Positions 30,220 through 56,842 of a stretch of 64,000 nt of DNA are shown piece by piece. A model generated the notes under the pieces. The model saw only the letters and a program-made list of their open reading frames with translations. It was not told where the DNA came from and made no database searches. The stretch's first letter is position 1, and every line of letters begins with the position of its first letter. This DNA comes from Reticulascus tulasneorum. Its lineage: Eukaryota; Ascomycota; Sordariomycetes; Glomerellales; Reticulascaceae. The DNA lies in contig LSAX01000005.1 in NCBI GenBank assembly GCA_001557505.1, forward strand, positions 3,534,001 to 3,598,000, written 5' to 3'. The translations under genes were made by a program, and so were the position numbers.

Positions 30220-33200
30220 CTACCTGCGTGCGCGCTCTGCAGCTGCGGAGCCCACGCCCGACGAGGACACGGCCTTCTCGACGGCGCTGGTCATGGCCAG
30301 CCCGACGGGCGTCATGGTCCCGGTGGAGGGGGCGGGCGTGGTGGCGCGAGTGGGCGGGGCGGATCGGTTGTGCTGCATGTGTGCGCGCACGAGATGGCCG
30401 GCCGCCAGGGCACTACACAGCGACAGCTCACCTGCGAGGGTGGCAGCGGCGACGATGCGGGCAAGGCGCCTGGCGTTCTCGCCGGGGTTGGTTGGGTGGG
30501 GGCCGCGGACACCGAGCATCTCGAGCATGGCGCTCTGGGGCTCTAGGATGGTGCCACCGCCGAGGGTGCCGACCTCGATTGAGGGCATCGAGACGGAGAT
30601 TTGGAGAGAGCCGCGGAGACTGGCAGGTTAGCATGGCTCGGCAGAGAGGACACGGCAGACTTACTTCTTCATTATGGTGATGCAGTTAGCGCTCTCGACC
30701 ACCTGGGCGGGGTCTTGGCCGGTGGCGAGGAAGATGGCGGCGACCATGTTCGCAGCGTGGGCGTTGAAGCCGCCGACGGACGCGGCCATGGCGGATCCGA
30801 TCAGGTTCTTGTTGATGTTGAGCTCGACGAGGCTGTCGACGTCGCTCTTGAGCACGCTCCGGACCACGTCAGCCGGGATGATGGCCTCGGCGACGACGCT
30901 CTTGCCGCGGCCGTCGATCCAGTTGATGGCGGCTGGCTTCTTGTCGGTGCAGTAGTTGCCTGAAACCGAGACGATGTTCATGTCGTCGAAGCCGCCGTCG
31001 GTGGCCATGACCTCAAGCGCGTGCTCGACGCCCTTGGAGATCATGTTCATGCCCATTGCATCGCCGGTGGTCGTCTTGAAGCGGATGTACAGGTTGGTGC
31101 CTGCGAGCGCAGTCTTCATTGACTGGAGGCGGGCGAAGTTGCTGGTCGAGTTGAAAGCCTTCTTCATTGTCGCCTGGCCTGCGTCCGAATCGAGCCAAAG
31201 CTTGGCCGCACCGGCGCGCTCGAGCGTCTCGAAAGTAACGCAAGGCCCGCGGGTCATGCCGTCTCCGGTCAGGACTGTCACGGCACCACCACCAGAGTTA
31301 ATGGCCTTGCAGCCACGACTCGCGCTGGCAACGAGTACGCCTTCAGTCGTGGCCATGGGGATGAAGTAGCTCTGGCCATCGATGACAAGGGGCCCGGCCA
31401 CGCCGACGGGAATGGGCATGTAACCGATGACGTTCTCGCAGCAAGCGCCAAAGACGCGTTCCCAGTTGTAACCTTCGAATGGGAGCTTCGAGCGATCTAA
31501 CAAGCTGGTCACGTTGGCCGTGGCCTTGGTGCGCGAGATGATGGTCCGGCGAATCTTGACCGCGCGCGTAAAGTCCTTGAGCGTGCGCTCAAGGGCGTAA
31601 CCAGGGATCTTGCCGCGCATGGACATGGCCACAATCTCTTCGTCTGTCATGTCGGGGGCGCGCTTTTGCGCCAGGAGAGCCTCCAGCTCGGGGATACTGC
31701 GCTTCTCGGCGGGGCTTGACGGCTCTGAGGGCTTGATCGGCCGCATCGAGAGGGCATCCGACTCGTCGTCGGTGGACGCCGGCGTTAGCGGTTTGGGGGG
31801 TTGTGGCGGCGGCATGTACTCGCCAAGGGGGAGAGTGGCGGCGCCCGTGTCGTTGAACTTCTCGGCGCGCGCAAGTTCCCTGCGGTCGATAAGATGTTCG
31901 GGCATGTTGGGGTCCTTGATGCCCCAGCGAGCCACGTTAAAGAGATAGCCGTTGAGAGCGACGCTCATTGCCAGCGCCACGATGATCCACTTGGAGAGCA
32001 CGGGGTCCTCGAGGCTCTTCAGCAGGCTGCCGACCATACGGCCGCCCATGCCGTACCCGTCGAAGTCGTAATCGTCGCCTGCCCCGGAGCCTTTGCCGCC
32101 GGATGATAGTGCGTAGTGGATTGACGGGTATTCGAGCTCGTACTTGATGGGAGTGAGAATGGTAACGATGGTCGGTTGGTCCGCATGCCTTGCGCTGGCA
32201 AGGATCTCGTCAAGTCCGTTGGATGCGACTTTGAAAGGGTCCACTGGCGGCGCCGTGACGACTGCGCCGAGCCCGCCCGTCCAGGACGAGATGCTCGATA
32301 GAGAGTTCGCATTTCGGAAGGGGATGGTGCAGATGTTGACGGCATTGATGAGGACGAACCCCGAGACCATGAGCACCTTGAACTTGGGCACGCTGCTGCT
32401 CTTCATCTGCCGGCCGAAGAGCGAGGCGTCCTTGGGCTCGGCGCCGTCGGTGCGCGGCCAGTCATTGCTCTTGGCGACATTCTCTGCGACACGACGACTC
32501 ACGCCGTCGTCTTCAAGCGCACGGCGCATCTCGACATGGCGCTTGATGCGGTTGATCTCGAGCTTGATGCTGAGGATGGCGGTGTAGAATGAGAATAGGA
32601 GGATGCAGTCGAAGAAAAGGATCCAGGCGGCCAGGAAGCAAAACTGCTGGAGCCCTCCTTGCACGCCTGACGCGGCGCCGAGAATGAGAATGATAATCTC
32701 AATGACGTAGTCGCGCACAATCTCGTAGCCCTTGTCCTTGATCGCGGCTTGGACGGCGTACTGGATAACATTGGACGAGGCAACATCCGGCGACCGCTTC
32801 TTCTTCTTGCTGTCTTCCTGGGGGCGGCGGTGCTCGATGGCGTGCGAGAGGACGGCCCGCGTCAGCACAATGTTCTTCTCGAAGCCGATGGTGACGACCA
32901 AAAACGGCAGTCCCTCGGATAGGAGGACCATGGTGATGGGGACGCCCATCTTGGTAGTGACGATGAGGCCGAAGAGGAAAGAGAAGACGGACGAGAAGAG
33001 GACGTTGGTAAAGAGCCAAAAGTTGGAGCCCATGCGACGCATCGACAGGAAGAGGGAGACAAAAGTCAGATGCATCGACAGGTAGCCGAGCACCATGATG
33101 AAGATGTCGAGGGTCTCGGCGTTCTTGAGCAGGTCGAGGAACTCGGACCAGGCGTTAGCGGCCCAGTGGGCAATTGTGTTCCGGGTGTTGACTCTGGCAG

Positions 33201-33840
33201 CTTTCATAATCCACATCTTCTCCTCCTCCTTGCCGCCGTGGCCTGCCTCGCGCGTCTCATCGGCGGTCGCGTTGGGGATCTCCTGCGCGCCGGCTAGAAA
33301 CTCAGCCGCCTGGCTGTACGGGACTGCGAACGCCAGGGCGCTGTCCTGGGAGTAGGTCGTCAGGGAGTTGGAGGTCGACGGCAGCGGGATAATGGAGAGG
33401 TTCTGCGGGAAGGGCACCGTCTGAGCGTGGGGCGCGGTGTGCAGCGACTGGGTGGACTGCGAGTCTGGGAAAACGAGAGTCAGGAGGGCAAGGTGTTCGA
33501 GGTCGCCGGCGGAAGCGGCGGTGTCGGCCTCAACGCTCTGCCATTTCCAGGCGGTGTCGGGTCCGGTCCGCAGACATCTGCTGCCCTCGGCCAGGGACGA
33601 CCAGTCGGCCTTGCGCACAGTTGTCGTGGCATCGAAGATGCTCTCCTGCAGCAGGCCCACATATGATGTGCTCGCCAGCACGGCCACGATGACCACTGTG
33701 TGTATCGGGTGGGAGCATGCCACCTTGGAGAGGAACTGCAGGGTGGGCGAGATCTTCTTGTTCAGCCAGGAAGGGCTCGAAGCCTGGGCCGAGGGTTGCT
33801 GGCCGCGGAAGCGGAGGGGGAGTAAAGAGGCGGCGTTCAT
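30220..33840 (-). CDS. Class I HMG-CoA reductase
   Basis: Two exons, complement(30220..30619, 30666-side donor: exon 1 is 30665..33840), 1191 residues; the 3' intron (30620-30664) splits an Asn codon in [19 protein letters not shown]. The enzyme reduces HMG-CoA to mevalonate in the ER membrane, the committed step of sterol and isoprenoid synthesis. The N-terminal half carries several membrane helices with a sterol-sensing-type region (about residues 220-420). A linker is followed by the catalytic domain from about residue 740, with [18 protein letters not shown] (catalytic Glu, about 831), DAMGMNM (about 928), GQDPAQ (about 1045) and GHLVRAHM (catalytic His, about 1140). Length and completeness fit the normal housekeeping enzyme; whether another copy exists elsewhere cannot be seen. 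It is 15.4 kb from the PKS, which raises but does not establish a resistance role. Confidence 0.95.
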
Positions 33841-35034
33841 GTTGAGGTGTATGGAGTGTTGGAGGTTGACCGGCTATGGACGCATCGGGGAATCCCGAGT
33901 CGGTCTGTGGTTTCTATATGTGAGTTAGGCACTTGGTTGGTTCCTTGCGAATGGTGGCAGCGGATGGAATACAACTGGCAGAGGGAATCTGAATTGGAGG
34001 TTGTCTTACCAGGTACTCGTACTACGACGTTAACGTTCTCGTACTCGTTTTCGCGAACGTTGAAGGTCAGCTTCGATAAGTCGGGGAGAGGGTTGCAGGT
34101 AAGCCAATGTGCAGAATCGTGAAAGGCGGTGGCGGGTCGCCGAGGTCGCAGGGAAAGTGTTGACGTCTCAATTGAGGCGACGGGGAGATGTTTTAGTACC
34201 ACGAGATGCCTTCTTGAACTGCGAGGAGATGTTTCAAGCAAGGACTTGCCGTATCGAGAGGCTACGAGGTGGGGGAGGAGGATCGAGAGCGGTCGAGGTG
34301 GGAAGAAGGGACCCTGAAAGGGATAAGAAGGAGAAATTGAGGTGGATGGATGATGGCTAGTAGTAAAAAAAAAAGTTGGTGAGAGATTCCCCCGATGTTG
34401 AACCGTGCACGCTGCACCGGGGGAAACTCCTTTTTACGTCGTAGTTGGGTACTGGTTATTAGTGATCTTCCTTTAGTGGGGTTGCACACTGTGGCGATGG
34501 CGGGTTTAGTGGGTGTCGTCACCCCAAAGAGGCTTGGATCCCACCTGATTTCCATTATTCAGAAGTAACTTATACCTAATTACTCGCTAGATTTTCTTTG
34601 GGTACTTATCCCAATACTTAGCTACTCATAATTGGATCCCCCCCCCCCTTCCCCGGAGCTGTGCGTACATGCCACACCCCGAGTGAGTGCCTCCTCTCCC
34701 CGCCGCACACATACATCCATGGTCCCCAGGATCTTGTTTGTTCGACTCGGGATGGACAATACCCGCATCTTGGTATTGTTCCCCCGTTTCCCTCTTTCCC
34801 TTGGTTTCGAGGCGGACGGGCATATGACCAAGGCGGAACCTCCTGCTCGAAACAAACAAAAACCAAGCTTTTGGGGAGCTGGCCCGTCCTCGTTGCGCCT
34901 GGGTCCCAGATTGGCACTATGGTTGCATTTGGCTAAGTTATTGTGATTGCGGTGGAGCTGTCTACCCTAGCTTCGTGGAGCCGCGGAAACTCCTTATCTT
35001 CCTTATCAACTGACAGGACGGTTAATCCGCCCCT
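33841..35034. other. 5' region of HMG-CoA reductase and spacer
   Basis: No gene recognised. Contains an A-run at about 34366, an 11-C homopolymer at 34638-34648 and pyrimidine/purine-skewed tracts, typical of fungal upstream regions. Confidence 0.45.
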
Positions 35035-37838: not shown

Positions 37839-39661
37839 TTACTCGCCCGCCATCTTCTTCTCGTCCCGCCCTTGGTGCAGTGTCGCCGCAACCCGGTTAG
37901 TCATGTACTTGTCCACATTCGGGAGCAGCAACGCGCAGATGATGGCAACGCCAGAAAAGGCAATGTTGGCGAAGAAGACCGTCCGGTACGCGTCAGCGTT
38001 GGCTACCTGGTACGCGCGCCTGCCCACGGCCAGTATGTTGTCTGTAAGCCCTGGCACGTCTGCAAACGACCCGGTTGTGAAGCCGCCGAGGAACTGTGCC
38101 ACACTCGACTCAGGGAGGCCGGCACCGATGATGGCGGCCGGGACCTGCGAAGGGATCGTTTGGCCAAGCCGATTCGTCAGGATAACGCTGTAGATGGTAG
38201 CCGCAATGGAGCTGATGAGGAAGCGGATGCTGCCCGCGATTCCGCTTGCACTACCCAGATGGGCCTGATCCGGAGCGCAGAGCGTGACGATGGTGATGGC
38301 GGCGCCCTCGGTCCAGCCGATGAAGAAGACACCGAAGGATAGGAGGACCGACGCGCGGATGCGCGTGTCTGGCCCGCAGGTCGCGATAGAGGCAAAGCAG
38401 ATGGCGCCGAGGCACATGTTGATGACGCACTGCCACTTGAGGTGCCCAATCGGCTTGCCTAAGAAGCCGCCGACGACCTGGCCGGCGACGATGAAGAGGC
38501 CGACAAAGGACGACAACCAAGCCCCGTATAGCGGATCGTTGGCGTCACCGTACATGACGGCGACCATATTCGGCCAGACGATGGCAAAGGCATAATAGAC
38601 ACTGGCACCGAGGCCCGTCAGGATGACGGAAGCAACCCAGTCGCGGTTGCGGAAGTAATGCATCGGCACCAGGGGTTCCTTGAGCTTCGCGAAGCACTCC
38701 CACAGGACGAAGATTACCAGCGCCACGAATCCGACGATGATGGTGGCGATGACATGCGGCGAGCCCCATGGGTAGACGCTGCCTCCCCAGTTGAGGCCCA
38801 TCATGAAGATGAGCAGGCCGCCCGTGTACAGCGTCGTGCCGATGTAGTCGAAATTCTTGACGTATTTGAGCATGCTCGCATCGCCGTGCTTCATGTGGAA
38901 TGTGGGCGGGTGGTAGAAGAAGAACCAGCAGAGGAAGCTGGCCGTGTTGATGGCGATGAGGATGTAGTAGCCCCCACGCCAGCCGATGTTCGGGTGGTTC
39001 TGGATAAACGACTGGGAGATGACCGGCGCGACCCCGGATCCGGGGATGCAGAACAAGTAGCAGAAGCCGTTGCCGACGAGGCGGTACTTCATGGGCACCA
39101 GCTCGCCCATGACATAAAAGTACGATAGCTGAGTGGCCGCCGCGACGCCGATGATGGTCGTGCCGCCAATAAGTGTGTTCACGTTCTGCGCCGTCGCGCA
39201 GACGACGCTACCGATAACGCCGAGCCCGGCACCACCCACAAACATCCACCGCCGTCCGAAGATGTCACTCACGCGGCCGATGATGGTTAAAGTGACGGCA
39301 CTGGTCAGGGTGTAGACCAGCGCTACCCATATGATGTTGGCGTCCTGCAACGAAGTGTCAGTCAAGAGAAACACACCCGACGAAGAAGAAGTCTACATAC
39401 CGGCCCGATATCCGCGTTGATGATTCCGAGGATGGGCGCTGCGTAGCCGAATCCGGCCACACCTGCCATGAGCCCGAGACCGATGGCCATCATAGTCCCG
39501 ACGAAGAACTTGCTGGTGAAGTAGCCAGGGGGCAGTTGGCCCTCCTCCACTTCGAGGTTTGCGCTTTCCGTCTCGCTGATGGGGTCGATACGGTCGATCC
39601 TCTCGTCGTGTGCCTTCTCCATGTCGGACGATGAGGCATTGTGTCTGTGGTGGATATCCAT
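37839..39661 (-). CDS. MFS efflux pump, TRI12/siderophore-exporter-like
   Basis: Two exons, complement(37839..39344, 39401..39661), 588 residues, about 14 membrane helices. Layout and motifs match the fungal trichothecene-efflux-pump (TRI12) branch of the drug:H+ antiporter family: IGRVSDIFGRRW between helices 2 and 3, the long FHMKHG...FDYIG loop after helix 6, and a charged C-terminal tail. The intron falls after ADIGP, joining to DANIIWVALVYT. Members export toxins or siderophores across the plasma membrane. It is 9.6 kb from the PKS with a glycosidase and an ATPase between, so cluster membership is uncertain. Confidence 0.85.
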
Positions 39662-41944: not shown

Positions 41945-44900
41945 ATGGACTTTCGGATCAATAGCAGCCCTGCCTGGGCTGGATCTATATATGAGCCGGC
42001 ATCTGGGTGGGAGTTTGGATGCTTTCAGTCGAGTGCGCTGCTCTTTGGCCTTTGTGCTTGGATGGTTTCTCTTGGCTTGCTCTACCACACCAGATCCCGG
42101 TACCATGCAGTCGAGAAGTACACAATTCTCGGCCAGGCCGCTGTCATTCTCCTCGGACTCAGCTTCCTTGCGTACGAGAACATCATCCAGCATGGCCGTC
42201 CCACTCCACTTCGAGACCTGGCACCGTCAAGCACAAGCAACGAACACTCTCCGTTCACACTTCTCGATGATGCCAACGAGGGAGCGACACTTCTCCCCAA
42301 TGTTCAGGATCCGGAGGCGGTAAATCCTCAGAATGTCTGCCCAGGTTACGTAGCGTCAAACGTCCAGGCAACGTCACACGGATTCACTGCCGATTTGGAT
42401 CTTGCTGGAACTGCTTGCAACGTATATGGTACCGATGTTGCCGAGTTGTCGCTTATTTTTGAGTACCAAGCTAGCGATCGAATCCACCTTGAGATTCTGC
42501 CCCGTTACATAGGACCTCGGAACTACACTTGGTTCGTCCTGCCGGAGGAACTGATTCCAAAACCAGTCGCCGCCGAGGCAGGAGGAAATGCTGATACCTT
42601 AGACAATGAATTCGAGTTTATGTGGGACAACTCGCCTACGTTTGCGTTCACGGTATTGAGGAAACTGACCGGCGACGTTCTGTTTTCTACGAATGGTAGC
42701 AAGCTTGTATTTGAGGATCAGTTCTTCGAGTTTGGCTCGCCTCTACCGGAGAACTACAATCTGTACGGGCTCGGGGAAGTAATCCATAGTTTCCGCTTGG
42801 GAAACAATCTTACCAGTAAGTCACATGAGAAGAGAACGAAACTCAAAGCTGACATTTCCAGGGACGCTATTCACGGCGGATGTGGGCGATAACATAGACG
42901 CCAATATCTATGGTTTTCATCCCGTCTACATCGATACCAGATACTTTGAACTCAACCCAGACAATGAAGCGATTTACGCTGCAAATGCAACAAACACTTC
43001 CGCAAAGTACGAATCCTACACGCACGGTGTCTTCCTGCGTAATGCCCATGCCCAGGAGGTTCTCCTTCGGGAGTCCAACATCACCTGGAGAGGCCTCGGC
43101 GGCACAATCGACTTGTACTTCTATGCTGGGCCAACAGCAGAGAAGGTCATGAAATCATACCAGCACAGTACCATCGGCCTCCCCGCAATGCAGCAATACT
43201 GGGCACTGGGGTACCATCAATGTAGGTGGGGCTATACAGGCTGGGAAACACTCCAGGAGGTCGTTGACGACTTTGCCCGGTCCGAGATCCCGCTAGAGAC
43301 AATTTGGGGTTAGTACTCGTTCATGCCAAGACGGCGAGCTATGGCTGATGATGATCCATAGCCGATATCGACTACATGTACCAGTACCGCGACTTTACAG
43401 GCAACCAGAAAAACTGGAGCTATACTGAAGCAGCTAAATTCCTCAGCAGACTACACGAGAACGGTCAGCATTTCGTGCCGATCGTCGACTCGGCCATCTA
43501 CGCTCCAGACCCCAAAAATTCAAGCGACATATACCCAACTTACGACCGCGGCATCGAGGCCAACGCCTTCATTCTCAATCCGGATGGATCTCTCTACGTG
43601 GGTGAAGTTTGGCCCGGGAGTACTGGTATGTCTCTTTCCATGTTCCATTAGCCCGCCTAACATCCTGAAGTCTTCCCCGACTTCATCGGCGCCGTCCTAA
43701 ATACTAGCCGGACTTTTGAATGGTGGACAGGCGAACTCTCTACCTGGCACGCTAATATCCCGTACGACGGCATCTGGATCGACATGTCCGAAGCCGCCTC
43801 TTTCTGTATCGGGAGCTGCGGGACACGCAGCCAAACCATCGACCTCGCGCACCCGCCTTTACTCCCGCATGGCGAGCTGCGCGACAGGGCCTCAAGCTAT
43901 CCAGAAAGCTTCAGCTCCATCCTCGCTAGCAAGATAGCCACCACAGCACCCGCTTCCTCCACCGCAACCACCACCTCCTACCTCCGCACCACCCCGACCC
44001 CTGGTATCAGAAACGTAAACTACCCACCTTACGTGATCCAGCACTTCAGAGGCGACCTGGCCGTGAAGGCCGTGTCCCTTAATGCAACTCACCACGGCGG
44101 CACGCAAGAATACGACTTCCACAACCTCTTCGGTCACCAAATCCTCAACGCGACCTACAATGCCCTCCTGTCCGTCTTCCCCGGCACGAGGCCCTTCATA
44201 ATCGGGCGTTCGACGTTCGCCGGTTCTGGAAAGTACGCCGGTCACTGGGGCGGCGACAACTACTCCTTGTGGGCATTCATGTTCTTCTCCATACCGCAGG
44301 CTCTAAGCTTCTCCATCTTCGGCTTCCCCATGTTCGGCGTCGATACGTGTGGCTTGGACGGCAATGTCGACATGGAGCTGTGCGCGCGGTGGATGCAGTT
44401 GAGCGCCTTCTTCCCGTTCTACCGCAACCACAATAATTTCGGTCGAAGGTCGCAGGAGCCGTACAGATGGCCTGAGGTTGCGGAAGCGAGCAGGGTGGCA
44501 ATGCGGATAAGATACACGCTGTTGCCGTACATGTACACGGCGCTTTACAAAGCACACACGCAAGGCGAGACGGTGATGCGGGCGCTGGCATGGGAGTTTC
44601 CCGGCGAGCCGTGGCTTGCGGCGGCGGACAGGCAATTTCTCCTGGGCGATGCGATCATGGTTACGCCGTGCTTGGTGCAAGGTGCCACGAGCGTCAATGG
44701 GGTCTTCCCTGGCGTGGGAGTTGGGACCGTGTGGTATGACTGGTATAACCAATCTGCCATCACGGGCGTTGGCTCGGGGGAGAATGTTACTATCGCGGCG
44801 CCCTTGGGGCATATTCCTGTCTACATTCGCGGCGGACATGTCATACCCACGCAGGAGCCTGGTATGACGACCAAAGCGAGCAGGGCTAATCCGTGGGGGC

Positions 44901-45285
44901 TGTTGGTGGCGCTGGATGGCCGAGGACAGGCCGTTGGGAGCCTCTACGTGGATGACGGGGTGAGCTTGGTGCCGAAAGAGACACTAACTATCGAGGTCTG
45001 GATCCCCTTCCTCTTGTTGACTAATAGCAAACTAACGAGATTCAGCTCTCCGCTGCGAATGGCAGCCTCACAGCCCTGCCGTCTGGGAAGTACAAGGACT
45101 CGAATCCGCTAGCTAACATTACAATCATGGGTATTCAAAGGGCTGTGTCTGAAGTAGTGCTCAACGGCCAAGTATTGCTTGGTAAGTCCTGGGGCTGGGA
45201 TGCTCGGACTTTAAGCATCACAGGCCTGCAAAATTCTAGTCTGGATGATGCGTGGGGTCGGGCTTGGACGCTTACCTGGAAATGA
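41945..45285 (+). CDS. Glycoside hydrolase family 31 (alpha-glucosidase-type)
   Basis: Five exons, join(41945..42815,42862..43308,43362..43625,43671..44995,45046..45285), 1048 residues. GH31 marks: YNLYGLGE, LGYHQCRWGY, IPLETIW-ADIDYM, the nucleophile signature W-I-D-M-S-E (Asp565), and the acid/base region GHWGGDNYS. C-terminal beta-sandwich sequence ends TLSITGLQNSSLDDAWGRAWTLTW. These enzymes remove terminal alpha-linked glucose or xylose and are usually secreted. The N-terminus is odd: from the ATG at 41945 there are two hydrophobic stretches (about residues 30-47 and 61-76) before the mature-like segment that starts near DPEAVNPQNVCPGY, so either a downstream start provides a signal peptide or the protein is membrane-anchored. 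The donor of intron 4 (GTCTGG) is weak. Confidence 0.9.
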
Positions 45286-46292
45286 GCGTTACCCTGTTCG
45301 GGCTAGAAAAGTCATGCAGCTCTGTAAATCTAAAATCAAGGTCCCGTCATCCAACAGGGGGTATACCCAATGTGGGCGACGCTGAGAGACGGGACGCCTT
45401 TGATGGGAACATATATTACGGGGAAGTCGGCCTGCGACCGTTGTCTGTCTGCACGTGACCAGGCAGATTTCAGGCTCCCACCGCTGCCTAGGTAGGTACC
45501 TAGGTGCCTTTGCCTTAACGTGCCTAAGGTAAGGTACCTAATTGGCAGTTGCCGCCACACACCCTTGTTGGCTGGTGGCAAGTGTGGCTGACTCTCTAAC
45601 CACGCACAATACAAAGTAAGGATCTCCTTTGATCCATCCCCCATCATTCAATCCTCCTCCCCAAGTGCCATGCTACTGGAGCCTGCATGAAAGATTCTGT
45701 CCCTTTCTCAAGCAATCCGTGGACATGTAAATGTAGTCCAGAGTTATTAAAGCAAGCAAATATTACACACCGTGGAGTTCGGTGCAGCAAATCAAATAGT
45801 GCCCAGGGGTCAGTCTTGGAAAACCCCCACGATGGATTATTCCGCCGTTGCGTTTTCCGCCGAGGCTCAAAATTTTCTATTGGGTGAATCGTAGAGGCAG
45901 CACCTGCTGCCGATCATGTTTGCAGGGGGCTTGGGGCTTCGGTATCGACACTGCATAACGAACGGTACAGGATTCGGAGTTCTCACGGTAGAGTTACGGG
46001 CGACCATGGCTCGGCGACAGGCATTAAACGCGTATCCAATCCTCCCAGGCGGGGTGACGAGGCAACCAGTGCCTATCACAGAGCCAATCACGGTTAGATA
46101 TAGACGCCGCCGTATATTGACTCATACCGTTCGTAACATACCCGGTTCCGGGCAGTTTGTAGAATCGGATGGCTCCCAACGGAGGATGAAGTGGAGTCTT
46201 CGCCGCGGCTGCCTGCAGCATGCTAGGCGGCCAGAGGAGTCAGAGCTTGCGAACCACCGTGACAGCTGATTGGAACATAGACTCCAAGCCAC
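45286..46292. other. Intergenic upstream of AAA ATPase
   Basis: About 1 kb without a supported gene. Contains short repeats of CCTAGGTA/TACCTA type at about 45488-45540. It leads into a TATA-containing promoter. Confidence 0.45.
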
Positions 46293-46298
46293 TATAAA
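46293..46298 (+). promoter_or_regulatory. TATA box of AAA ATPase gene
   Basis: TATAAA 73 bp upstream of the ATG at 46366. With usual fungal spacing, transcription would begin about 30-40 bp downstream, before 46366 but after the other in-frame candidate start (46270). This supports 46366 as the true initiator. Confidence 0.55.
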
Positions 46299-46365
46299 GG
46301 CTGGGCTATGGATCTCTAGACTTCACATCATTCCACATTCCGTTACAGAATCTCACACTGCAACA

Positions 46366-48435
46366 ATGGCCCGAACAAAACAAACAGCCCGCGCGCATAA
46401 CACCGCGAATGACGCCGTGGTGGATGAGGAGGACCAGATGGAAATCAATGGACAGGTCACAGAGGAGGAAAAGCTCCGCCGTGAGGCCCTGGAACAGGCC
46501 CCCATGCAGCCCGAGCTCAAGCACCTCGAGAAACGCTGGACCAAAAAGGGTCGCGGCTATATCACCGAGCCCAAGGAGGACGAGGATGTCCTCGAGGAAA
46601 AGACGAACTGGTATGAGAAGTTTGCCCTCTGCGTAAGTTTCCAACGCCACATGTGACACTGGTCCCGGCCTAACAATCCCCAGATCACCCGCCAGTATGA
46701 CAGCCAAAACCAGTACGTCTGCAGGACCTCCCTGCAGATCAACTCGCCTTTCCTCAAGGACATTCTGAAGGAGGTTATCGGCGCCGTCTACCCCGGACAG
46801 TCTTACATGACCTCCGACATCTCAGTCGACTTCCCGGCTCGGAGCCTGTACCACTACCGCCACGAGCTTCGAGATGTCCTACCCACCCTGGAAGCGGACT
46901 CGGAGGCCGCGGCGCATCTTCCCCTCCTGCTCAGTTTCATCGAGGAACAATTCCAAGACGCCATCAAGGGCGGAGAGAACCTCCTTGAGCAGGGTCTTGT
47001 AAGCTACGAGCACCTGTGGACCATCTTCCGCCCGGGAAGCCTGGTGTACGCGACTCGCCTCGGACAACGGCGCGCCTACAATCTCACCCAGTATCAATAC
47101 GTTTGCGGCGAAAACCCTGGCTTGCAGCTTTCAGTGGAATACGTTGACTTCGACGGTGACGAGTTCGGCAAACGCCACGAGTACCTCCTCGTACCCCAGT
47201 TCGCAGGCGCCATCCAGATCGCCGACCTTAACGCCCTCCCTTTACACCTCCACCCCGATGCCGAGCGCATCACCGCCTTCCTCATCGAGCGTGGCCGTCG
47301 ATGGGAGTCACTCGCTGGCCAAAACTTTCGCGAGTACACGGGTGTAGCTGTGGCTCCGCGTGGCGGCCGGTACAACATTGACGGCCGTGTCATGGTCGAC
47401 GCGCGAACATTCCACCGGATTAAGGCCGACTACGCGTTCGATGTCACCGCATTCCCCAAGTCGGCTGGCGAGAAGCGCAAGCAGGCAATGGATAGCAGCG
47501 AGACAGACCTCGTGCCGAAGCAGTCGGGTGAATTTCCACCCCTAACCGACGAACAAGCGCTGCTCGCAAGCCCCATGGTCCGCGGGTTCAGTTTCACCGA
47601 GAAGAAGTTCATGGACTTCTTCGTGGACCGCCTGCGCGCAATAGAATGGAATACAAAGTGCTTCGAGCAGCTCGTGCTACCCGAATCGCAGAAGGAGCTG
47701 GTCCAGGCACTCGTGGCGGAGCACACAGCCCGTGCCACCGACCCCAACGCCGGAGGGTTTGACGACATTGTCAAGGGCAAGGGGCTGGGTCTCATCCTAG
47801 TGCTGCATGGACCGCCCGGCGTTGGCAAGACGCTGACGGCCGAGTGCGTGGCCGAGTTCTCCCGCCGGCCGCTTTATATTGTGTCCTCGGGCGACCTAGG
47901 CACGTCGTCCACTGTGCTCGACGAGCGGCTCAGCCAGACTCTTGATCTTGCCAGCACCTGGAAGGCAGTCCTTCTGATTGACGAGGCTGATGTCTTCCTC
48001 GAGCGCCGCTCATTGCACGATATGGAACGCAATAGTCTCGTATCCATATTCCTGCGCACTCTCGAGTACTACAGTGGCATCCTTTTCATGACGACTAACC
48101 GCGTCCGCACATTCGACGACGCATTCAAGAGCCGAATCCATGTGCCGCTCAAGTACGTCGACCTGCCACGAGAGAGCCGGCTCAAGGTCTGGAAGAACTT
48201 CCTCGGTCACATCGAAGGCGGCGTCGATATTGACGAAGCGGGCTACAAGGCCCTCAGCGAGGGCCGGCTCAACGGGCGACAGATCAAGAATGTGGTTCGC
48301 ACGGCTAAGAGTCTCGCCGCACACAAGAAGCGGCGGCTGGACTGCAACCAGCTCCAGCAGGTCATGGACATCCAGATGGCCTTTGAAGAGGATCTCGACC
48401 AAGTGGACGCGGAGATCGACATGGTCCAACGCTGA
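46366..48435 (+). CDS. AAA+ ATPase with histone-H3-like N-terminus
   Basis: Two exons, join(46366..46632,46684..48435), 672 residues. The AAA module is complete: Walker A GPPGVGKT (about residue 465), Walker B LLIDEADVF (about 520), and the second region of homology TTNRVRTFDDAFKSRIHV. It is preceded by a domain resembling the DUF7025 region of fungal AAA proteins (about residues 180-300, with GSLVYATRLGQRRAYNLTQYQYV). This family is widespread in filamentous fungi and functionally uncharacterised. The start is in a strong context (CAACAATGGC) with a TATA box 73 bp upstream. After Met, the first eight residues are A-R-T-K-Q-T-A-R, identical to histone H3 residues 1-8, then diverge (A-H-N-T) into an acidic stretch. 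Met-Ala starts are normally trimmed, which would expose the H3-like end. The PKS follows on the same strand after 858 bp. Substrate and location are unknown. Confidence 0.92.
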
Positions 48436-49293: not shown

Positions 49294-52200
49294 ATGGCGC
49301 CATATCTCGATCCGTCCCGCGCACCTTCATTAGTGGGCACTGTAAGTTCCATAACGGTGCTCTCTCGAGCCTCAAAAAGCTAAAATCTTTATCTAGACGG
49401 GAACCACTTCACCAACGGCCTGGGCCAACGATGACCTCTCCGGGCTGGCAGAGCCGATTGCTGTCTGCGGCATCGCCCTTCGGCTCCCTGGTGGCATTTC
49501 GAACCCTGAAGATTTGTGGGAATTTTTGATCAACAAACGCGATGCACGGAGCCTCATCCCGGAGACGAGGTTCAAGGCCTCGAGTTATTACTCCAAGGCT
49601 GGCAAGCCGGGCCATATCCAGTCCGAGCATGGCTACTTCCTGGACGAATCGGTGGATCTCGGTGCTATCGACACAACCTTCTTCACCATGCCAAAATCCG
49701 AGGTGGAGCGGGCCGATCCTCAGCAGCGGTTGTTGCTAGAACTGACGCGCGAGTGCCTCGAGAGCGCAGGCGAGACCGACTATCGCGGCAAGCCCATAGG
49801 AACATATGTCGGTTCCTTTGGCGAGGACTGGCTGGAGACATTTGCCAAAGACCAGCACGTCTTTGGCTTGTATAAGATCACAGGCTACGGCGACTTCGTG
49901 CTCTCCAACCGACTCTCCTACGAATACGATCTCAAAGGACCAAGCATGACCATCCGAACGGGCTGCTCGTCAGCGCTCATCGGCCTCCACGAAGCGTGTT
50001 TGGCAATACGCGCTGGTGAATGCAGTGGCGCTCTCGTAGCTGGTTGCAACCTCATAATGGCGCCGGGCCTTTACATTAATATGTCAGAGCAGGGAGTTTT
50101 GTCGCCATCGGGATCCTCCCGCACATTTGACGCAGACGCTGATGGATATGCACGAGGCGAGGCGATCAATGTACTCTACATCAAAAAGCTCTCTGATGCT
50201 ATACGTGATGGGAACCCGATCCGCGCGGTCATCCGTGCGACGTCCAGCAATGCAGACGGCAAGACGACCGGCATTAGCGTGCCAAGCTCCGAGAGTCATG
50301 AAGCCATGATTCGCAGGGCCTACAAAGTTGCTGGCATCACGGACTACTCTGGCACCGGCTTCGTCGAGTGCCACGGCACGGGCACTCGCACGGGCGACCC
50401 GATCGAGGCGACGGCTATCGCCAATGTGTTTGGTGACAAGGGCGTCTACATTACGTCGGTGAAACCAAACGTGGGTCATTCGGAGGGTGCTTCGGGCATC
50501 ACCTCGCTCATCAAATCGATCCTCGCGCTTGAGCACCAGATCATTCCGCCGAACATCAAGTTCGACAAGCCCAACCCCAAGATTCCGTTCGCGGAACGCA
50601 AACTAACGGTGCCTATCGACTCGGTCCCATGGCCGGAAGACCGCTGCGAGAGAGTATCTGTCAATTCGTTTGGTATCGGTGGCGCCAATGTCCACGTCGT
50701 CATCGACTCGGCGAGGAGCTTCTTAAACACATCGTCCACAGAAGCCGCGGCAACTGGACCGCATCTTTTGATCTATTCCGCTAATACGGCCGATTCTCTT
50801 CGACGGCAGGTGGTAAACCACCAGAAATATATCGAGGACCACCCGCTGTCTTTAGCTGACGCGGCGTACACTTTGAGCGTTAGGAGGCAGCACCTCTTGC
50901 ACCGCGCGTTTTCGATCGTTGGGGACGACGTAGAAGCCAACACGTCAGCTTTTACGAAGACGCCATCCTCAGCCCCTGAGGTCGTCATGATATTCACTGG
51001 CCAAGGAGCCCAGTGGCCGCAGATGGGTGCCGAGCTTTTGCAATCGAACACCACTTTTTCGGCATCCATTCGGCGAATGGATAAGGTACTTGGCACCTTG
51101 CCCGACAGGCCAAGCTGGTCGATCGCCGACGAGCTCGCAAAGGCGGCACCACTGAGCAACCTGCACAGTGCCGCAATCTCCCAGCCACTTTGCACTGCTA
51201 TCCAGGTGGCGCTTGTCGACACGCTAGCAGCGCTTGGAATCCGACCTTATGCTGTGGCTGGCCATTCGTCGGGTGAGATGGCTGCGGCGTACGCCGCGGG
51301 AAAGCTTACAGCAACAGAAGCTATCATCGCAGCGTACTACCGGGGTATCGTTTCAGGCGAGGTGGTAAGGCAGGGAGGTATGGCAGCTGTTGGATTGGGG
51401 CGAGAGGCTACGTCGGTATACCTAGTTCCCGGCGTCGTCGTGGCCTGCGAAAACTCGCCGTCCAGTGTCACTATATCCGGCGATCAGAATCGCGTCGACG
51501 AGGTCCTAAGTGCAATCAAAGCTGCCCACCCTACTGTGCTGGCACGGGCGCTCAAAGTTGACAAGGCCTACCACTCCCATCACATGAAAGAAGTTGGATC
51601 CCGGTACCATGCTCTGGCCTCAAGCCATGTCCACGGTACCGGCGAAGGGTCCGGGCCCCTCTTCTTCTCCACCGTCACAGGCGAACAACTAGGTCCGTCC
51701 GACCGGACAGGTGCCGCCTATTGGCAAGCCAATCTCGAGTCGCCCGTCTTGTTTGGCACCGCCATCACTAACCTGCTCGCCCACCACCGGGCCGGATCGT
51801 CTGCGAATCTGCTCTTCCTTGAAGTCGGGCCACATTCTGCGTTAGCTGGACCGCTGCGTCAAACGCTAGCTGTTTCTTCGACGACGAGTCCATATGCCTC
51901 GTGTTTAATACGCTCCAAAGACGCAAGGGAGTCCTTACTTTCTGCTCTCGGCACCCTCTGGCTGCACGACATCCCCGTTGACTTCAATGCACTGACAAAC
52001 CCGCACGCAACAGCCAGTGTGCTCACCGACCTGCCGACATACCCCTGGCATCACGATCACAGCTATACATTTGACGTCCGACTCGCTCGAGAATGGCGTT
52101 TCCGCCGTTTCCCTAAGCACGAGCTTCTCGGAGTTCGAGTGGCCGAAAGCACAGACTCTGAGCCGTCGTGGCGCAACGTTCTCGTTCTCGACCACGTCCC

Positions 52201-55200
52201 CTGGCTACGGGACCATAACATCAAAGGCGACGTCATCTTCCCTTGCGCCGGGTATCTTGGCATGGTCGGCGAGGCAGTCCGACAGCTCTGTGTCATCGGT
52301 CAAGACGAGTATGGCGGGTACGCTGTGAGGGATGTTGTCATCGGCACGGCCATGGTGCTGAGCGAAGGCAAGAACACCGAGGTAATCACGAGCGTGAAAC
52401 GGTCAAAGTTGACAGATAGCCTGGACAGCAGCTGGTGGGAGTTTGTGGTGAGCTCGCACAACGGGACAGCTTGGACAAAGCATGCGACAGGGCAGGTCTG
52501 TGCAAAAGCCATGGGTATGGGAGATAGCAGATCCTACCCGACACTACCGAGAAAAGTCGACGCACCAAAATGGTATCAAGCCCTCCGTACCGTCGGGGCT
52601 AACTATGGGCCATACTTTCAAGGTCTGCAGGAGGTCTCCTGCTCGGCCAACGAGCCCCGCGCGATGGGAGTCGCCGTGCCTACAATCAGTGATGAGGAGG
52701 AGCTTTATGCGATCCACCCCACAATGATTGATTTCTTCTTACAACTGTTCAGTGTGACGAATCACCAGGGCCTCGGTCATAAAGCGGACGTGATGCACGT
52801 GCCAACTTTTATTGCTCGCTTGGATATCGGCGTATGCGACGGAGCCCTATCGATGATGGTTGAGTCGACGCGAACGCCGCTAGGCGTCATTTCTGGTGGA
52901 GGCGAGGGTGTTGGAACCGATGGCCATGTCGTTCTCCGCCTCAGCGGAGTTCGGCTCAGTCCCCTTGAGAGGGATGTTGTTTTAGATTCGCACGCCGGCG
53001 CGAGGATCTACTGGCAACCTGATGTTGACTTTCTTACAATGGCATCCCTTGTCAAGCCGCACGATCAGCAGCAAAAGCACCTGCAATCATGCCACAATCT
53101 CAATCTCCTCTGCATCAAGGAGGCACTCCACCGCCTGCAGGGTGTGCAGACCGCTATCCCGCATCTCGAGCGGTTCCGGTCATGGATGGCAAAACAGCCG
53201 GCACCTGAGACCGACGCGACTATACTCTCGCTGGTTCGAGATTTATCGGGCACGTCAGCAGAGCCGCTGGTGGTCGGTGTCAATAAGGTGCTTGAGCACA
53301 TCGTACCCATTTTTCGTGGCGACATCGAGCCTCTCGAGGTCTTGATGCCGGACAACATTCTTGCCAACCTCTATGATTTCCTCAATCTGTCAGACCGAAC
53401 TGCCTACTTCCAGGCTCTCGGCCACAGCAAGCCGAACCTCCGCATTCTCGAAATTGGCGCCGGTACAGGTGGCACTACTAACAAGGTCCTCAGTAGTCTC
53501 GTTTCACCCAATGGACAACCGTTATACTCGAAATATACGTACACGGACGTATCAGCTGGTTTCTTTGCAGCCGCCCAGGAGCGATTCAAAGATTATCCCA
53601 ATTTGACCTTCCAGGCGCTCGACATTGGTCGGGACCCGCTGGAGCAAGGGTTCGAGGCGGAGTCATACGATCTCGTGCTTGGGGCGAACGTGCTTCACGC
53701 GACGCCTAGCCTGACTGAGACATTGCGCAATGTGCGACGACTACTGCATGCCGAGGGTCGACTGTACATGGAGGAGTTATGCTGCGATGTCAAGCCGATC
53801 AACTTCATTATGGGTGTGCTTCCGGGCTGGTGGCTGGGAGCGGAGGATGGTAGGCCTGAGGAGCCGTATGTGTCCCCAGGTGTTTGGAAGCGGCACCTTC
53901 ACGAAGCGGGATTTGCGGGTATCGACGACTTTGCGCTCGATTGTGCCCGTCCAAATCATCTCATGGCGTTCATCACGGCCAAGCCTGCTAGAGTTGCAAG
54001 ACACAAAACCGCGACTTTGCTCCACGATCTAGACTCCCTAGATATCGCTACCTCTTTGGGATCTCACCTAGTCTCATCAGGCTTCGAAGTTGTCTTGCAC
54101 AACTTGGACACGTCTTTGCCGCCAACAGACAAGGATATCATATCCGTGTTAGACGTGAAAAGGCCATTCTTTGATGGCATTGGCCCAGTAGCGTTTGAAA
54201 GATTCCGTGCCCTGATGGAGGTGATATCAGGGTCCGACGCTGGCATTTTGTGGCTTACTCGCTCTTCTCAGCTCCAGTGTCCGGATCCACGTTGGTCCCA
54301 GGTCGTTGGTGCGGCACGTACCATCCGCGGCGAACTCAGTATCGACCTTGCCACATGTGAACTTGATACTCTTGGCAGCACAGCATACGAAGCGGCCGCA
54401 CGAGTTTTCGAAAAATTCCACATGCGACATGGTGGGGACACGATGCTGCCTGACTACGAGTATGCAGTTGAGAATGGTGTTGTGCATGTGCCCAGGCTAT
54501 TTCCAGTCGTGGTCGACGATGAGCTGGCGGCAGCCGTGCAAGAACACCGACCAGGACCGAACAACTTGACAATTGAAAAGTATGGGCGACTAAATACACT
54601 AAAGTGGACGTCGCGGCCAGTGCGGGAGCTGGTTGATGACGAGGTCATTGTCGAAGCCAAGGCCGTTGGCCTCAACTTCAAGGATGTTCTCATTGCAATG
54701 GGCATCGTCGCATCTACCACGAGCAACTTCGGGCTGGAAGCTGGCGGCGTCGTTACCCAAATTGGCCCTGCCGTTAAGGATCTCGCCGTCGGTGACCGCG
54801 TGTTCGTTCTCGGGGGCGGCTGCTTCTCCACGGGCTTGATCATTTCGGCCAAGCTCTGCGTCAAGATTCCTGACAAATTGGGCTTCGAAGATGCAGCCAC
54901 GATGCCCTGTGTCTTCTCCACTGTCATATATGGCCTCCTAGACGTCGGACGGCTCCGCGCAACTGATACAGTGCTTATCCATTCTGCATGTGGCGGTGTT
55001 GGGTTGGCAGCGATACAGATTTGCGGGATGATTGGCGCCGAGATCTACTGCAGCGTGGGGAGCGAGGAGAAGGTGCTTTACCTCGAGTCATGGGGCATTC
55101 CGCGCGACCACATCTTCAATTCGCGTGACGCTTCTTTCTTGCCAGCCGTGAAGGAGGCGACAGGCGGGCGTGGCGTGGACATTGTACTGAACTCGCTCTC

Positions 55201-56842
55201 GGGTGAGCTGCTTCATGCGTCATGGGAATGTGTGGCTGAGTTTGGCAAGATGATTGAAATCGGGAAGCGTGACCTCATCGGTCACGGTAAGTTGGCGCTC
55301 GACGTCTTTGAGCTGAACAGGAGCTATCATGGCGTTGATCTTGGACATCTCATTGATCTGAAACCAGAGGAGGGCAATCGGTACGTAGGCGTTCGTTGAC
55401 GAAGGAGTGAAGCTGACCTTGATAGATTGCTAAACAACATTATCCAATACTACGAGGAAGGTCACATCCAACCCCTGCCGATGAAAGCATTCCGCGCTGG
55501 ATCCGTGGAGGATTCTTTCCGGTACATGCAAAAGGGCCAGCACATCGGAAAAATTGTCGTGTCGATGGAGGAGACGCCAGTTACAGCACAACCAGCCAAG
55601 GGCGTTAGTTTCAAGAGCGGCGTATCGTATCTCTTAGTTGGCGGCCTAGGCGGCTTGGGCCGAGTCGTCTCTAACTGGATGGTCGAGCACGGCGCACGTC
55701 ACCTCATTTTCTTATCTCGCCGTGCCGGCGAGGGCGAGAGCGACCAACAATTCTTCGCGGAGCTGCGAAGCCAGGGATGTGAAGTGACAGCAGTCAAGGG
55801 CAGTGTCACTGTGGCGGCCGATGTCGAGAGGGCGTTGGCAGTGGCACCAGTCCCGGTGCGTGGTGTTTTGAACGTCTCGATGATTCTCCGAGACCAAAGT
55901 TTTGCCAAAATGACGCATGAGGAGTGGAGGGCCGCTGTGGACCCCAAGGTCCTGGGGACATGGAACCTGCACGCGGCGTGTCTGGCGAAGGGCATCCCGC
56001 TCGACTTCTTCCTGCTCTTTAGCTCCATTTCGGGCATCGTCGGTCAGCGTGGCCAGGCCAACTATGCCGCTGCCAACGCCTTCCTCGATTCGTTTGTGCA
56101 GTATCGCCATGGTCTCAATCTCGAGGCCGCAGCTGTGGATATCGGGATGATGCTTGACCACGGCTACGTTGCCGAGAACGAGATGCTGCGAGAACGACTC
56201 ACATCGCAGGGCCTCTATGGTATCAGAATACCAGAGCTTCTCGACGCCCTCACAGCCGTAATTGCAGCGCCGCTACAAGGCAGAGCCAGTTCAGGGGCTT
56301 TCGTGGAGCAGTCTCAGCTCATCATCGGGCACCGAAGCATCACTTCGTTGTCGGACCCCTCGAACCGTGTCATCTGGAAGGGTGACCGGCGCATGGCCGT
56401 CTACTTGAACAACGAGGCCGCAAGTGAAGCATCCACTAGCAAGGCCGGGTCGAGTGGCGCGCTCCTTTCCTTCGTGGCAACCGCCATGGGCGACCCGTCG
56501 ATCCTTCGATCGCCCGACACGGCGGCCTTTGTCGCCAGAGAGATCGCGGTGCAGCTATACGACCTCCTCTTGAGGCCGGTCGAGGAGGGAGATGAAATTG
56601 ACGTGTCACGCTCTCTGCAAGACATTGGCCTTGACAGCCTCGTCGCCATAGAGATGCGCAACTGGTGGAAGAGCACGTTCGGGTTCGACATTAGCGTCCT
56701 GGAGATGCTAGGCATGGGGAGCGTGCTAGCGCTGGGCGAGCGGGCCGTGGAGGGCTTGGAACGGAGATTCGCCGACGTCGAGGGGGAAGACGGTCCGAAG
56801 AAATTCTCGGTCGAGCAGATCATGGCGACAAAAATGCCTTGA
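49294..56842 (+). CDS. Highly reducing polyketide synthase (KS-AT-DH-MT-ER-KR-ACP)
   Basis: Three exons, join(49294..49341,49397..55380,55426..56842), 2482 residues. Domains in order: KS, active Cys206 in RTGCSSA, with CHGTGTRTGDPIEA and KPNVGHSEG; AT, GHSSGEMAAA with Ser about 640; DH, DHNIKGDVIFP (H-x3-G-x4-P, His about 954) with IHPTMIDFF Asp; C-methyltransferase, LEIGAGTGG (about 1366); ER, GLNFKDV (about 1773) and CGGVGLAAIQ (about 1880); KR, LLVGGLGGLGR (about 2080) with SSISG...NYAAAN; ACP, IGLDSLVAIE (Ser about 2414). Every visible catalytic motif is intact, so it should build a fully or variably reduced, possibly methylated chain. There is no thioesterase or other release domain, so a partner in trans is expected. 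The short first exon (ATG 49294) is chosen because its GTAAGT donor and TCTAG acceptor join in phase to the KS leader. Confidence 0.95.

Follow-up and report, generated by a model that had tools for sequence, protein, structure and literature searches.

Several non-histone proteins imitate the N-terminus of histone H3. The N-terminal VRTK of PAF15 is bound by the PHD finger of UHRF1 (review PMC8034647), the H3-like tail AKER of Sgo1 is bound by the BIR domain of survivin (PMC9253516), and the SNAG-domain factors Snail1 and GFI1 recruit LSD1 by an N-terminal H3 imitation (PMC12612597, PMC11388019). In the chromatin protein Swi6/HP1 the mimic is internal and acts in cis (PMC7192584). Here we describe a gene in a stretch of 64,000 nucleotides from the fungus Reticulascus tulasneorum (contig LSAX01000005.1, positions 3,534,001 to 3,598,000; hereafter the window), whose product, an AAA+ ATPase with a DUF7025 domain, begins with an exact copy of the first eight residues of H3. 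Read from the predicted proteins of its family, this tail is conserved over three classes of filamentous fungi, its residues 1-8 change more slowly than those behind them, and the Walker motifs are intact.

Like PAF15, the ATPase is a non-histone protein that opens with an H3-like sequence, which in PAF15 recruits an H3-tail binder; with Sgo1 it shares an N-terminal Ala end imitating H3 (here a putative free end), with the SNAG factors an N-terminal imitation, which in those docks on an H3-tail enzyme, and with Swi6 the occurrence of H3 mimicry in a fungal protein. It also differs from each of them. PAF15 is a small animal protein with a short and loose likeness, whereas here exactly 8 to about 20 residues stand on an ATPase; the likeness in Sgo1 spans four residues, one of them identical in place, and Sgo1 is no ATPase; Snail1 and GFI1 are transcription factors with a diverged sequence and not an exact H3 end; and the mimic of Swi6 is not N-terminal. 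Unlike p97/Cdc48, Rix7, the fidgetin-like and related AAA ATPases, the present protein has one AAA domain and a DUF7025 N-domain, and to our knowledge none of those enzymes has an H3-like start. In the part of the open-licence matches covered, no description of an H3-tailed AAA ATPase was found in titles or abstract starts, and that literature gave no entry for DUF7025 under that name. While an N-terminal H3 mimic is of a known kind, its exactness, its breadth and its AAA+ ATPase carrier thus appear new as far as searched.

The tail, its gene and its family

The ATPase gene (46366-48435, + strand) has one intron and encodes 672 amino acids with the DUF7025 and AAA domains. Its reading frame from 46366 is M-A-R-T-K-Q-T-A-R-A-H-N-T, and residues 2-9 equal H3 residues 1-8 at 8/8 positions, as a preliminary description of the window had reported. 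By the protein's own composition the chance of such a match is 2.4e-10 at one given place and 2.8e-6 over an assumed 12,000 genes; conservation is the stronger test. A first homologue search found 664 proteins, of which 120 were listed; a second one, run full-length with the Dothideomycete homologue P0110 as query, gave 996, and 33 of the 120 listed there were new. If the window protein is counted with these 153 homologues, 124 sequences extend as far as the first conserved block and 30 are truncated; many are metagenome proteins without names. The rate work used 114 rows: seven models in which a near-perfect tail follows an upstream extension were set aside, and P0035, P0080 and P0249 were dropped. 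Re-adding the seven, trimmed, gives 121 rows with a readable N-terminus, the window included and P0240, a model without Met, placed by hand.

The sequence MARTKQTAR lies within the first 90 residues in 38 of the 120 homologues listed of 664 (in 33 at residue 1), and 70 of the same 120 start with MART. When a row with at least 5/8 matches to H3 residues 1-8 is counted as tail-bearing, 81 of the 121 rows bear a tail, 39 of them with exact ARTKQTAR, and 40 have none. The exact tail is found in Colletotrichum chlorophyti, Lithohypha guttulata and Zymoseptoria tritici; by taxonomy the named bearers are Sordariomycetes, Eurotiomycetes and Dothideomycetes, all within the leotiomyceta. The preliminary description had suggested checking the motif among orthologues. 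That check goes mostly in its favour, and the H3 likeness at the N-terminus of this ATPase is conserved and no one-off. Orthologues without the motif, which it had named as the evidence to set against it, do occur (40/121), although the comparison mostly favours it. One source names the homologue P0113 'Putative histone H3/CENP-A, AAA+ ATPase domain', so the likeness has already been picked up by automatic annotation. Among 120 listed of 694 H3-tailed proteins of about 385-1225 amino acids, 2 are DUF7025 ATPases and 118 appear to have the histone fold PF00125, and further H3-tailed proteins may lie beyond this listed part.

The gene is laid out as follows, with the exons and the linker read from the sequence.

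46293..46298, + strand: TATAAA, possible TATA box, 73 bp 5' of the ATG (motif match only)
46366-46368, + strand: start codon ATG in good context, with A at -3 and G at +4
46366..46632, + strand: exon 1, 89 codons
46369..46392, + strand: H3-like tail A-R-T-K-Q-T-A-R, residues 2-9 of the unprocessed protein, conserved in homologues
46417..46506, + strand: acidic linker behind the tail, residues 18-47
46633..46683, + strand: 51-base intron, GTAAGT ... CAG, with frame and homology running on across it
46684..48435, + strand: exon 2, including the stop codon
46978..47256, + strand: DUF7025 (PF22942), residues 188-280, 89.1 bits against a cut-off of 27
47800..48141, + strand: AAA domain (PF00004), residues 462-575, 62.5 bits against a cut-off of 21.2
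47809..47832, + strand: Walker A, GPPGVGKT, identical letters in 145/153 homologues
47971..47994, + strand: Walker B, LLIDEADV, found in 118/153 homologues, a close variant in 31, unmatched in 4

The strong start context and the possible TATA box 73 bp upstream, both noted previously, are confirmed by this reading (A at -3, G at +4, TATAAA at 46293). No Met lies 5' of the ATG at 46366 in the stop-to-stop frame 46270-46656, so that an unspliced transcript would have no earlier in-frame ATG, and no repeats were found around the gene start. In the tail-bearing rows (81) the first 11 tail residues have a median net charge of +4, and the next 25 one of -7.

The window protein belongs to the fungal DUF7025-AAA ATPases, and its AAA module resembles p97 D1. 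The fungal AAA lid (PF23232) reaches 23.3 bits, under the cut-off of 27. A Pfam search at E 0.001 found in it neither a histone fold (PF00125) nor a PAF domain (PF15715); the latter touches residues 1-30 of the homologues P0104 and P0113 with 14.1 and 12.5 bits, under its cut-off of 23.4. Some homologues are named ATAD3 by one source. The ATAD3 family has an N-terminal domain of its own type in Pfam, and this domain is not among the five families matched by the window protein at the same E value. Fold searches with a whole homologue were dominated by the AAA part, and the N-domain was therefore folded and searched apart. In this second search the predicted barrel (residues 195-278) gave weak matches to Tudor, chromo and SAWADEE domains, several of which are H3 readers, which weakly suggests that DUF7025 is a beta barrel of Tudor/SH3-like type.

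Within the host genome (42.8 Mb) the uninterrupted coding pattern of the tail occurs without mismatch at 1 site, and the genome-wide pattern search gave no uninterrupted tail elsewhere; with at most 3 mismatches there are 12 sites, versus 8 for a reversed control. The sequence MARTKQTSA in locus L035, considered as a second H3-like start, stops after 15 codons. Related bodies account for 63 matching genome stretches, spread over about 25 to 30 places, and these include general AAA proteins. Of the other places, L008 scores best (39% identity); it begins MSGSDHLDED and has no tail; several of the paralogue loci L008-L026 stop short of the gene N-terminus, and tail absence was read directly only for L008. 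When 27 loci were scanned for frames led by Met and matching H3 at 5/9 positions, the hits were the window gene (L007 and L027), exon 1 of the fungus's own H3 gene (L001 and L005) and L010. At L010, a paralogue locus, the Met-led MARFKQSIL (- strand, frame 2, codon 201; 5/9 H3 matches) is probably due to chance. An intron lies within T6 of the own H3 gene, whose MARTKQ codons agree with those of the ATPase at 14/18 bases; capture of the first exon of the present H3 gene is accordingly unsupported. That a gene predictor spliced an H3 exon onto the ATPase is ruled out in the window, where tail and body share one 89-codon frame.

Constraint inside the tail and its longer forms

A tree that uses only the body gives site rates of 0.56 for A1, 0.93 for R2, 0.95 for T3, 1.77 for K4, 0.98 for Q5, 1.37 for T6, 1.02 for A7, 1.68 for R8, 3.48 for K9 and 1.77 for S10. 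Columns 11-21 have the highest value, 4.17, and the body mean is 0.52; the columns behind the tail are unaligned, so their rates are overestimated. In this alignment residues 1-8 change more slowly than the residues behind them.

Retention separates K4 from its neighbors. Among the 81 tail-bearing rows, R2 is kept in 80, A1 and T3 in 77 each and K4 in 57, the other seven positions ranging over 68-80. A recount, in which rows qualified for each position by having 4 or more matches among the other seven, gives R2 72/73, A1 69/74, T3 69/75, Q5 70/77, A7 69/78, R8 64/75, T6 62/78 and K4 50/78. As a control, 43 lysine-majority body columns in 80 tail-bearing rows keep Lys at a mean of 0.63 and a median of 0.57, compared with 0.70 for K4. 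The positions R2, Q5, A1, T3 and A7 stand at 0.95-0.99, above 66-80% of body columns, figures that are somewhat inflated because the tail rows were chosen by likeness. Replacements of K4 in the 81 rows are R (8), L (4), A (3), S (2), T (2) and V, M, I, Y and Q (1 each). These results argue that R2 and its neighbors are constrained and that K4 is constrained no more than an ordinary lysine.

A long tail, defined by 6 or more matches over the 12 H3 positions 9-20, is carried by 15 rows, which all fall in the Dothideomycete part of the tree; in them the likeness runs towards residue 20 (MARTKQTARKSTGGKAPRK-LA). Examples are MARTKQTARKSTGGKAPRKVLA in P0113 and MARTKQTARKSTGGMAPRKQLAS in P0107; P0104, P0107 and P0113 match H3 at 21/22 first positions, Met counted. 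Outside the Dothideomycete clade, P0019 and P0028 still have MARTKQTARKSTGG. Given these longer tails, the window copy looks like a shortened form. The divergence after R8 recorded in the preliminary description therefore stands for the window copy, which continues A-H-N-T, but not for the whole family.

Some rows depart from the common pattern. P0240 (Elasticomyces elasticus) has at residues 18-37 a near-complete H3 tail (ARTLQTARKSTGGKAPRKQL) after 17 residues and without a Met of its own, being either a wrong gene model or an internal tail. In P0102 (Teratosphaeriaceae sp.), residues 1-28 comprise H3 residues 1-7, a Gly/Arg-rich insertion and then GGRAPRKQL; as read, the insertion splits the H3 tail and both halves are kept. 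The models P0039, P0092 and P0112 begin MQTAR or MQSAR, with Met at the place of K4, and are perhaps K4-to-Met forms with a wrongly chosen start. P0117 and P0249 are labelled Quercus suber, yet they are placed among or beside fungal homologues and are probably fungal contamination of a plant assembly.

Proposed docking on an H3-tail binder and its alternatives

We propose, with belief and reserve in about equal measure, that this fungal DUF7025 AAA+ ATPase, with its p97-D1-like motor, carries a selected imitation of the H3 N-terminus that docks on an H3-tail binder. The initiator Met would be removed and Ala-1 exposed as a free end, in agreement with the second residues in 74 tail-bearing rows (A 69, P 2, G 1, V 1, M 1). 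The disordered end A1-R2-T3-x-Q5-T6-A7-R8 would dock, anchored by R2, on a protein whose usual ligand is the H3 N-terminus, and would have little need for K4 or its methylation. A ring, if hexameric like its relatives, would display up to six H3-like ends; the remodelling motor would thus be brought to a chromatin protein, or would compete with H3 for that protein. We infer the Met removal, the ring form and the identity of the partner, the candidates being, by footprint only, a WDR5/Swd3-type WD40 protein or KDM1/LSD1.

The footprint can be set beside described binders. The WDR5 pocket takes H3R2 while K4 stays at the surface (PMC11754111), and LSD1 is inhibited by an H3 21-mer with K4 changed to Met (Ki 0.04 uM; PMC6320820). 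The motif of the human H3K4 methyltransferase MLL4 requires K4 and leaves positions 5-7 free (PMC12551112); the retention pattern of the ATPase family is its reverse. With R2, Q5 and A7 kept and K4 loose, the footprint is a better match for a binder that anchors on R2 and tolerates changes of K4 than for a K4 writer or a K4-methyl reader. The genome encodes a SWIRM protein, its frame also holding an FAD motif, and it further contains BIR matches together with a haspin-like kinase, so candidate partners can exist in the host.

Several points tell against this proposal, among them the overestimated rates behind the tail and the inflated retention within it. The footprint is argued from analogy with animal proteins, and candidate partners present in one genome do not discriminate between candidates. 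The 40/121 rows from which the tail is absent are scattered over the tree; those without it include Pyricularia grisea, Podospora didyma, Colletotrichum karsti, Baudoinia and all eight Aureobasidium rows whose N-terminus is readable. Tail presence (74/114 rows) needs 27 changes, and 500 shuffles have a mean of 33.5 and a minimum of 27. Part of the apparent losses, though not all, may be start-codon errors of the models. By this comparison the tail is a patchy character that is often lost, and it is dispensable in many lineages; such patchiness argues that it is either useful but not essential, or that its function is able to move elsewhere.

A rather improbable extension is that the ATPase ring is a nucleosome lookalike, its six H3 ends forming a multivalent bait for H3-tail enzymes or readers that the motor then pulls off chromatin or apart. 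The tail would in that case come from the leotiomyceta ancestor, or would have spread since. The bait lysines K4 and, in long tails, K14 and K18 are often replaced by Arg, Leu, Met and others, so this form of bait would not be switchable by the usual lysine marks. In the 15 long tails, lysines (positions 4, 9, 14 and 18) are kept at 34/60 and other residues (positions 1-17) at 194/210 (Fisher p 9e-10), in a test that left out the poorly kept positions 19 and 20 and whose rows are not independent. Avoidance of lysines was rejected as proof of a decoy on account of this non-independence and of body lysines being equally loose (mean 0.63); as a sign of one it is speculation.

The preliminary description had suggested methylation of Lys4 or recruitment of H3-tail readers; in the version weighed here, Set1/COMPASS would methylate Lys4 and the ATPase would recruit H3K4-methyl readers. 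The peptide ARTKQTARK is a good in vitro substrate of human MLL4 (PMC12551112), and K4 is present in the window copy and in 57/81 tail-bearing rows. However, K4 is the least kept of the eight residues, close to an average body lysine, which argues against methylation as the conserved point; Q5 and A7, free in the MLL4 motif, are kept. We therefore consider this explanation unlikely for the family, and K4 could still be methylated in this species. In another account, autoinhibition in cis, the tail would occupy the Tudor-like DUF7025 barrel of its own protein and be displaced by a real H3 tail or another ligand. This draws on the match of that barrel (residues 195-278) to Tudor, chromo and SAWADEE domains, several being H3 readers, and on the autoinhibition reported for Swi6 and its H3-mimic sequence (Canzio 2013 via PMC7192584); it too we think unlikely.

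It is quite unlikely that the tail is a neutral relic, left by the 5' end of an H3 gene once fused to the ATPase gene and now decaying. The likeness is longest in one clade and shorter elsewhere, with many losses, as such decay would have it; but residues 1-8, K4 apart, are kept in 68-80 of 81 rows while bodies fall to about 50-55% identity, and the letters behind them change fast. Mitotic docking, in which haspin would phosphorylate T3 and a BIR protein (Bir1/survivin) bind the end in the manner of H3T3ph and Sgo1, accords with the retention of A1 and T3 (77/81 each), with the BIR matches and haspin-like kinase in the genome and with the Sgo1 precedent (PMC9253516). The tail, however, is also kept at Q5, A7 and R8, beyond the four-residue Sgo1 peptide, and we find this account very improbable.

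A nuclear import signal read by a Kap123-type importin is highly unlikely. Yeast H3 residues 1-28 do direct import, but Kap123 reads K14 and K23 (PMC5677370), where the window protein has Asn 14 and Gln 23, and across the 81 tail-bearing rows position 14 holds K in 4 and R in 14; K14R is reported to have a minor effect (PMC5677370). Chance is rejected on the conservation among homologues, and a gene-model artefact, for which seven homologous models with wrong-looking upstream extensions and three that begin inside the tail might speak, since they make model N-termini less than fully reliable, can be practically dismissed in view of the uninterrupted 89-codon frame of the window tail and body and of the 39/121 exact tails.

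Neighboring genes and significance

A highly reducing polyketide synthase (PKS) lies at window 49397-56842, with KS, AT, DH, MT, ER, KR and ACP domains by Pfam. Its frame is broken by a stop at 55397-55399; the stretch GTACGT...TAG around 55381-55427 reads as a short intron, so the PKS is probably without a lesion there. About 15 kb away from the PKS is an HMG-CoA reductase frame (about 30364-33873, - strand). Since the genome has no other HMG-CoA reductase match, a role of this enzyme in the self-resistance of a statin-type cluster is unlikely and was rejected. Also near the PKS is the frame of a TRI12-type efflux pump (37839-39392, - strand), and a glycoside hydrolase family 31 frame (43661-45112) stands just upstream of the ATPase gene. 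The link of the ATPase to the adjacent PKS, which had been suggested earlier, is doubtful and finds no support here. The preliminary reading as an H3 mimic was thus right in kind, its details of K4 methylation and of a PKS link being doubtful.

The N-terminal H3 mimics cited above are short or loose, and this ATPase family has retained the H3 end across three filamentous fungal classes. Its 81 tail variants amount to a natural mutagenesis series of the H3 end, free of the needs of the nucleosome. The series offers a direct route to what reads the H3 end, and a first handle on the DUF7025 ATPases.
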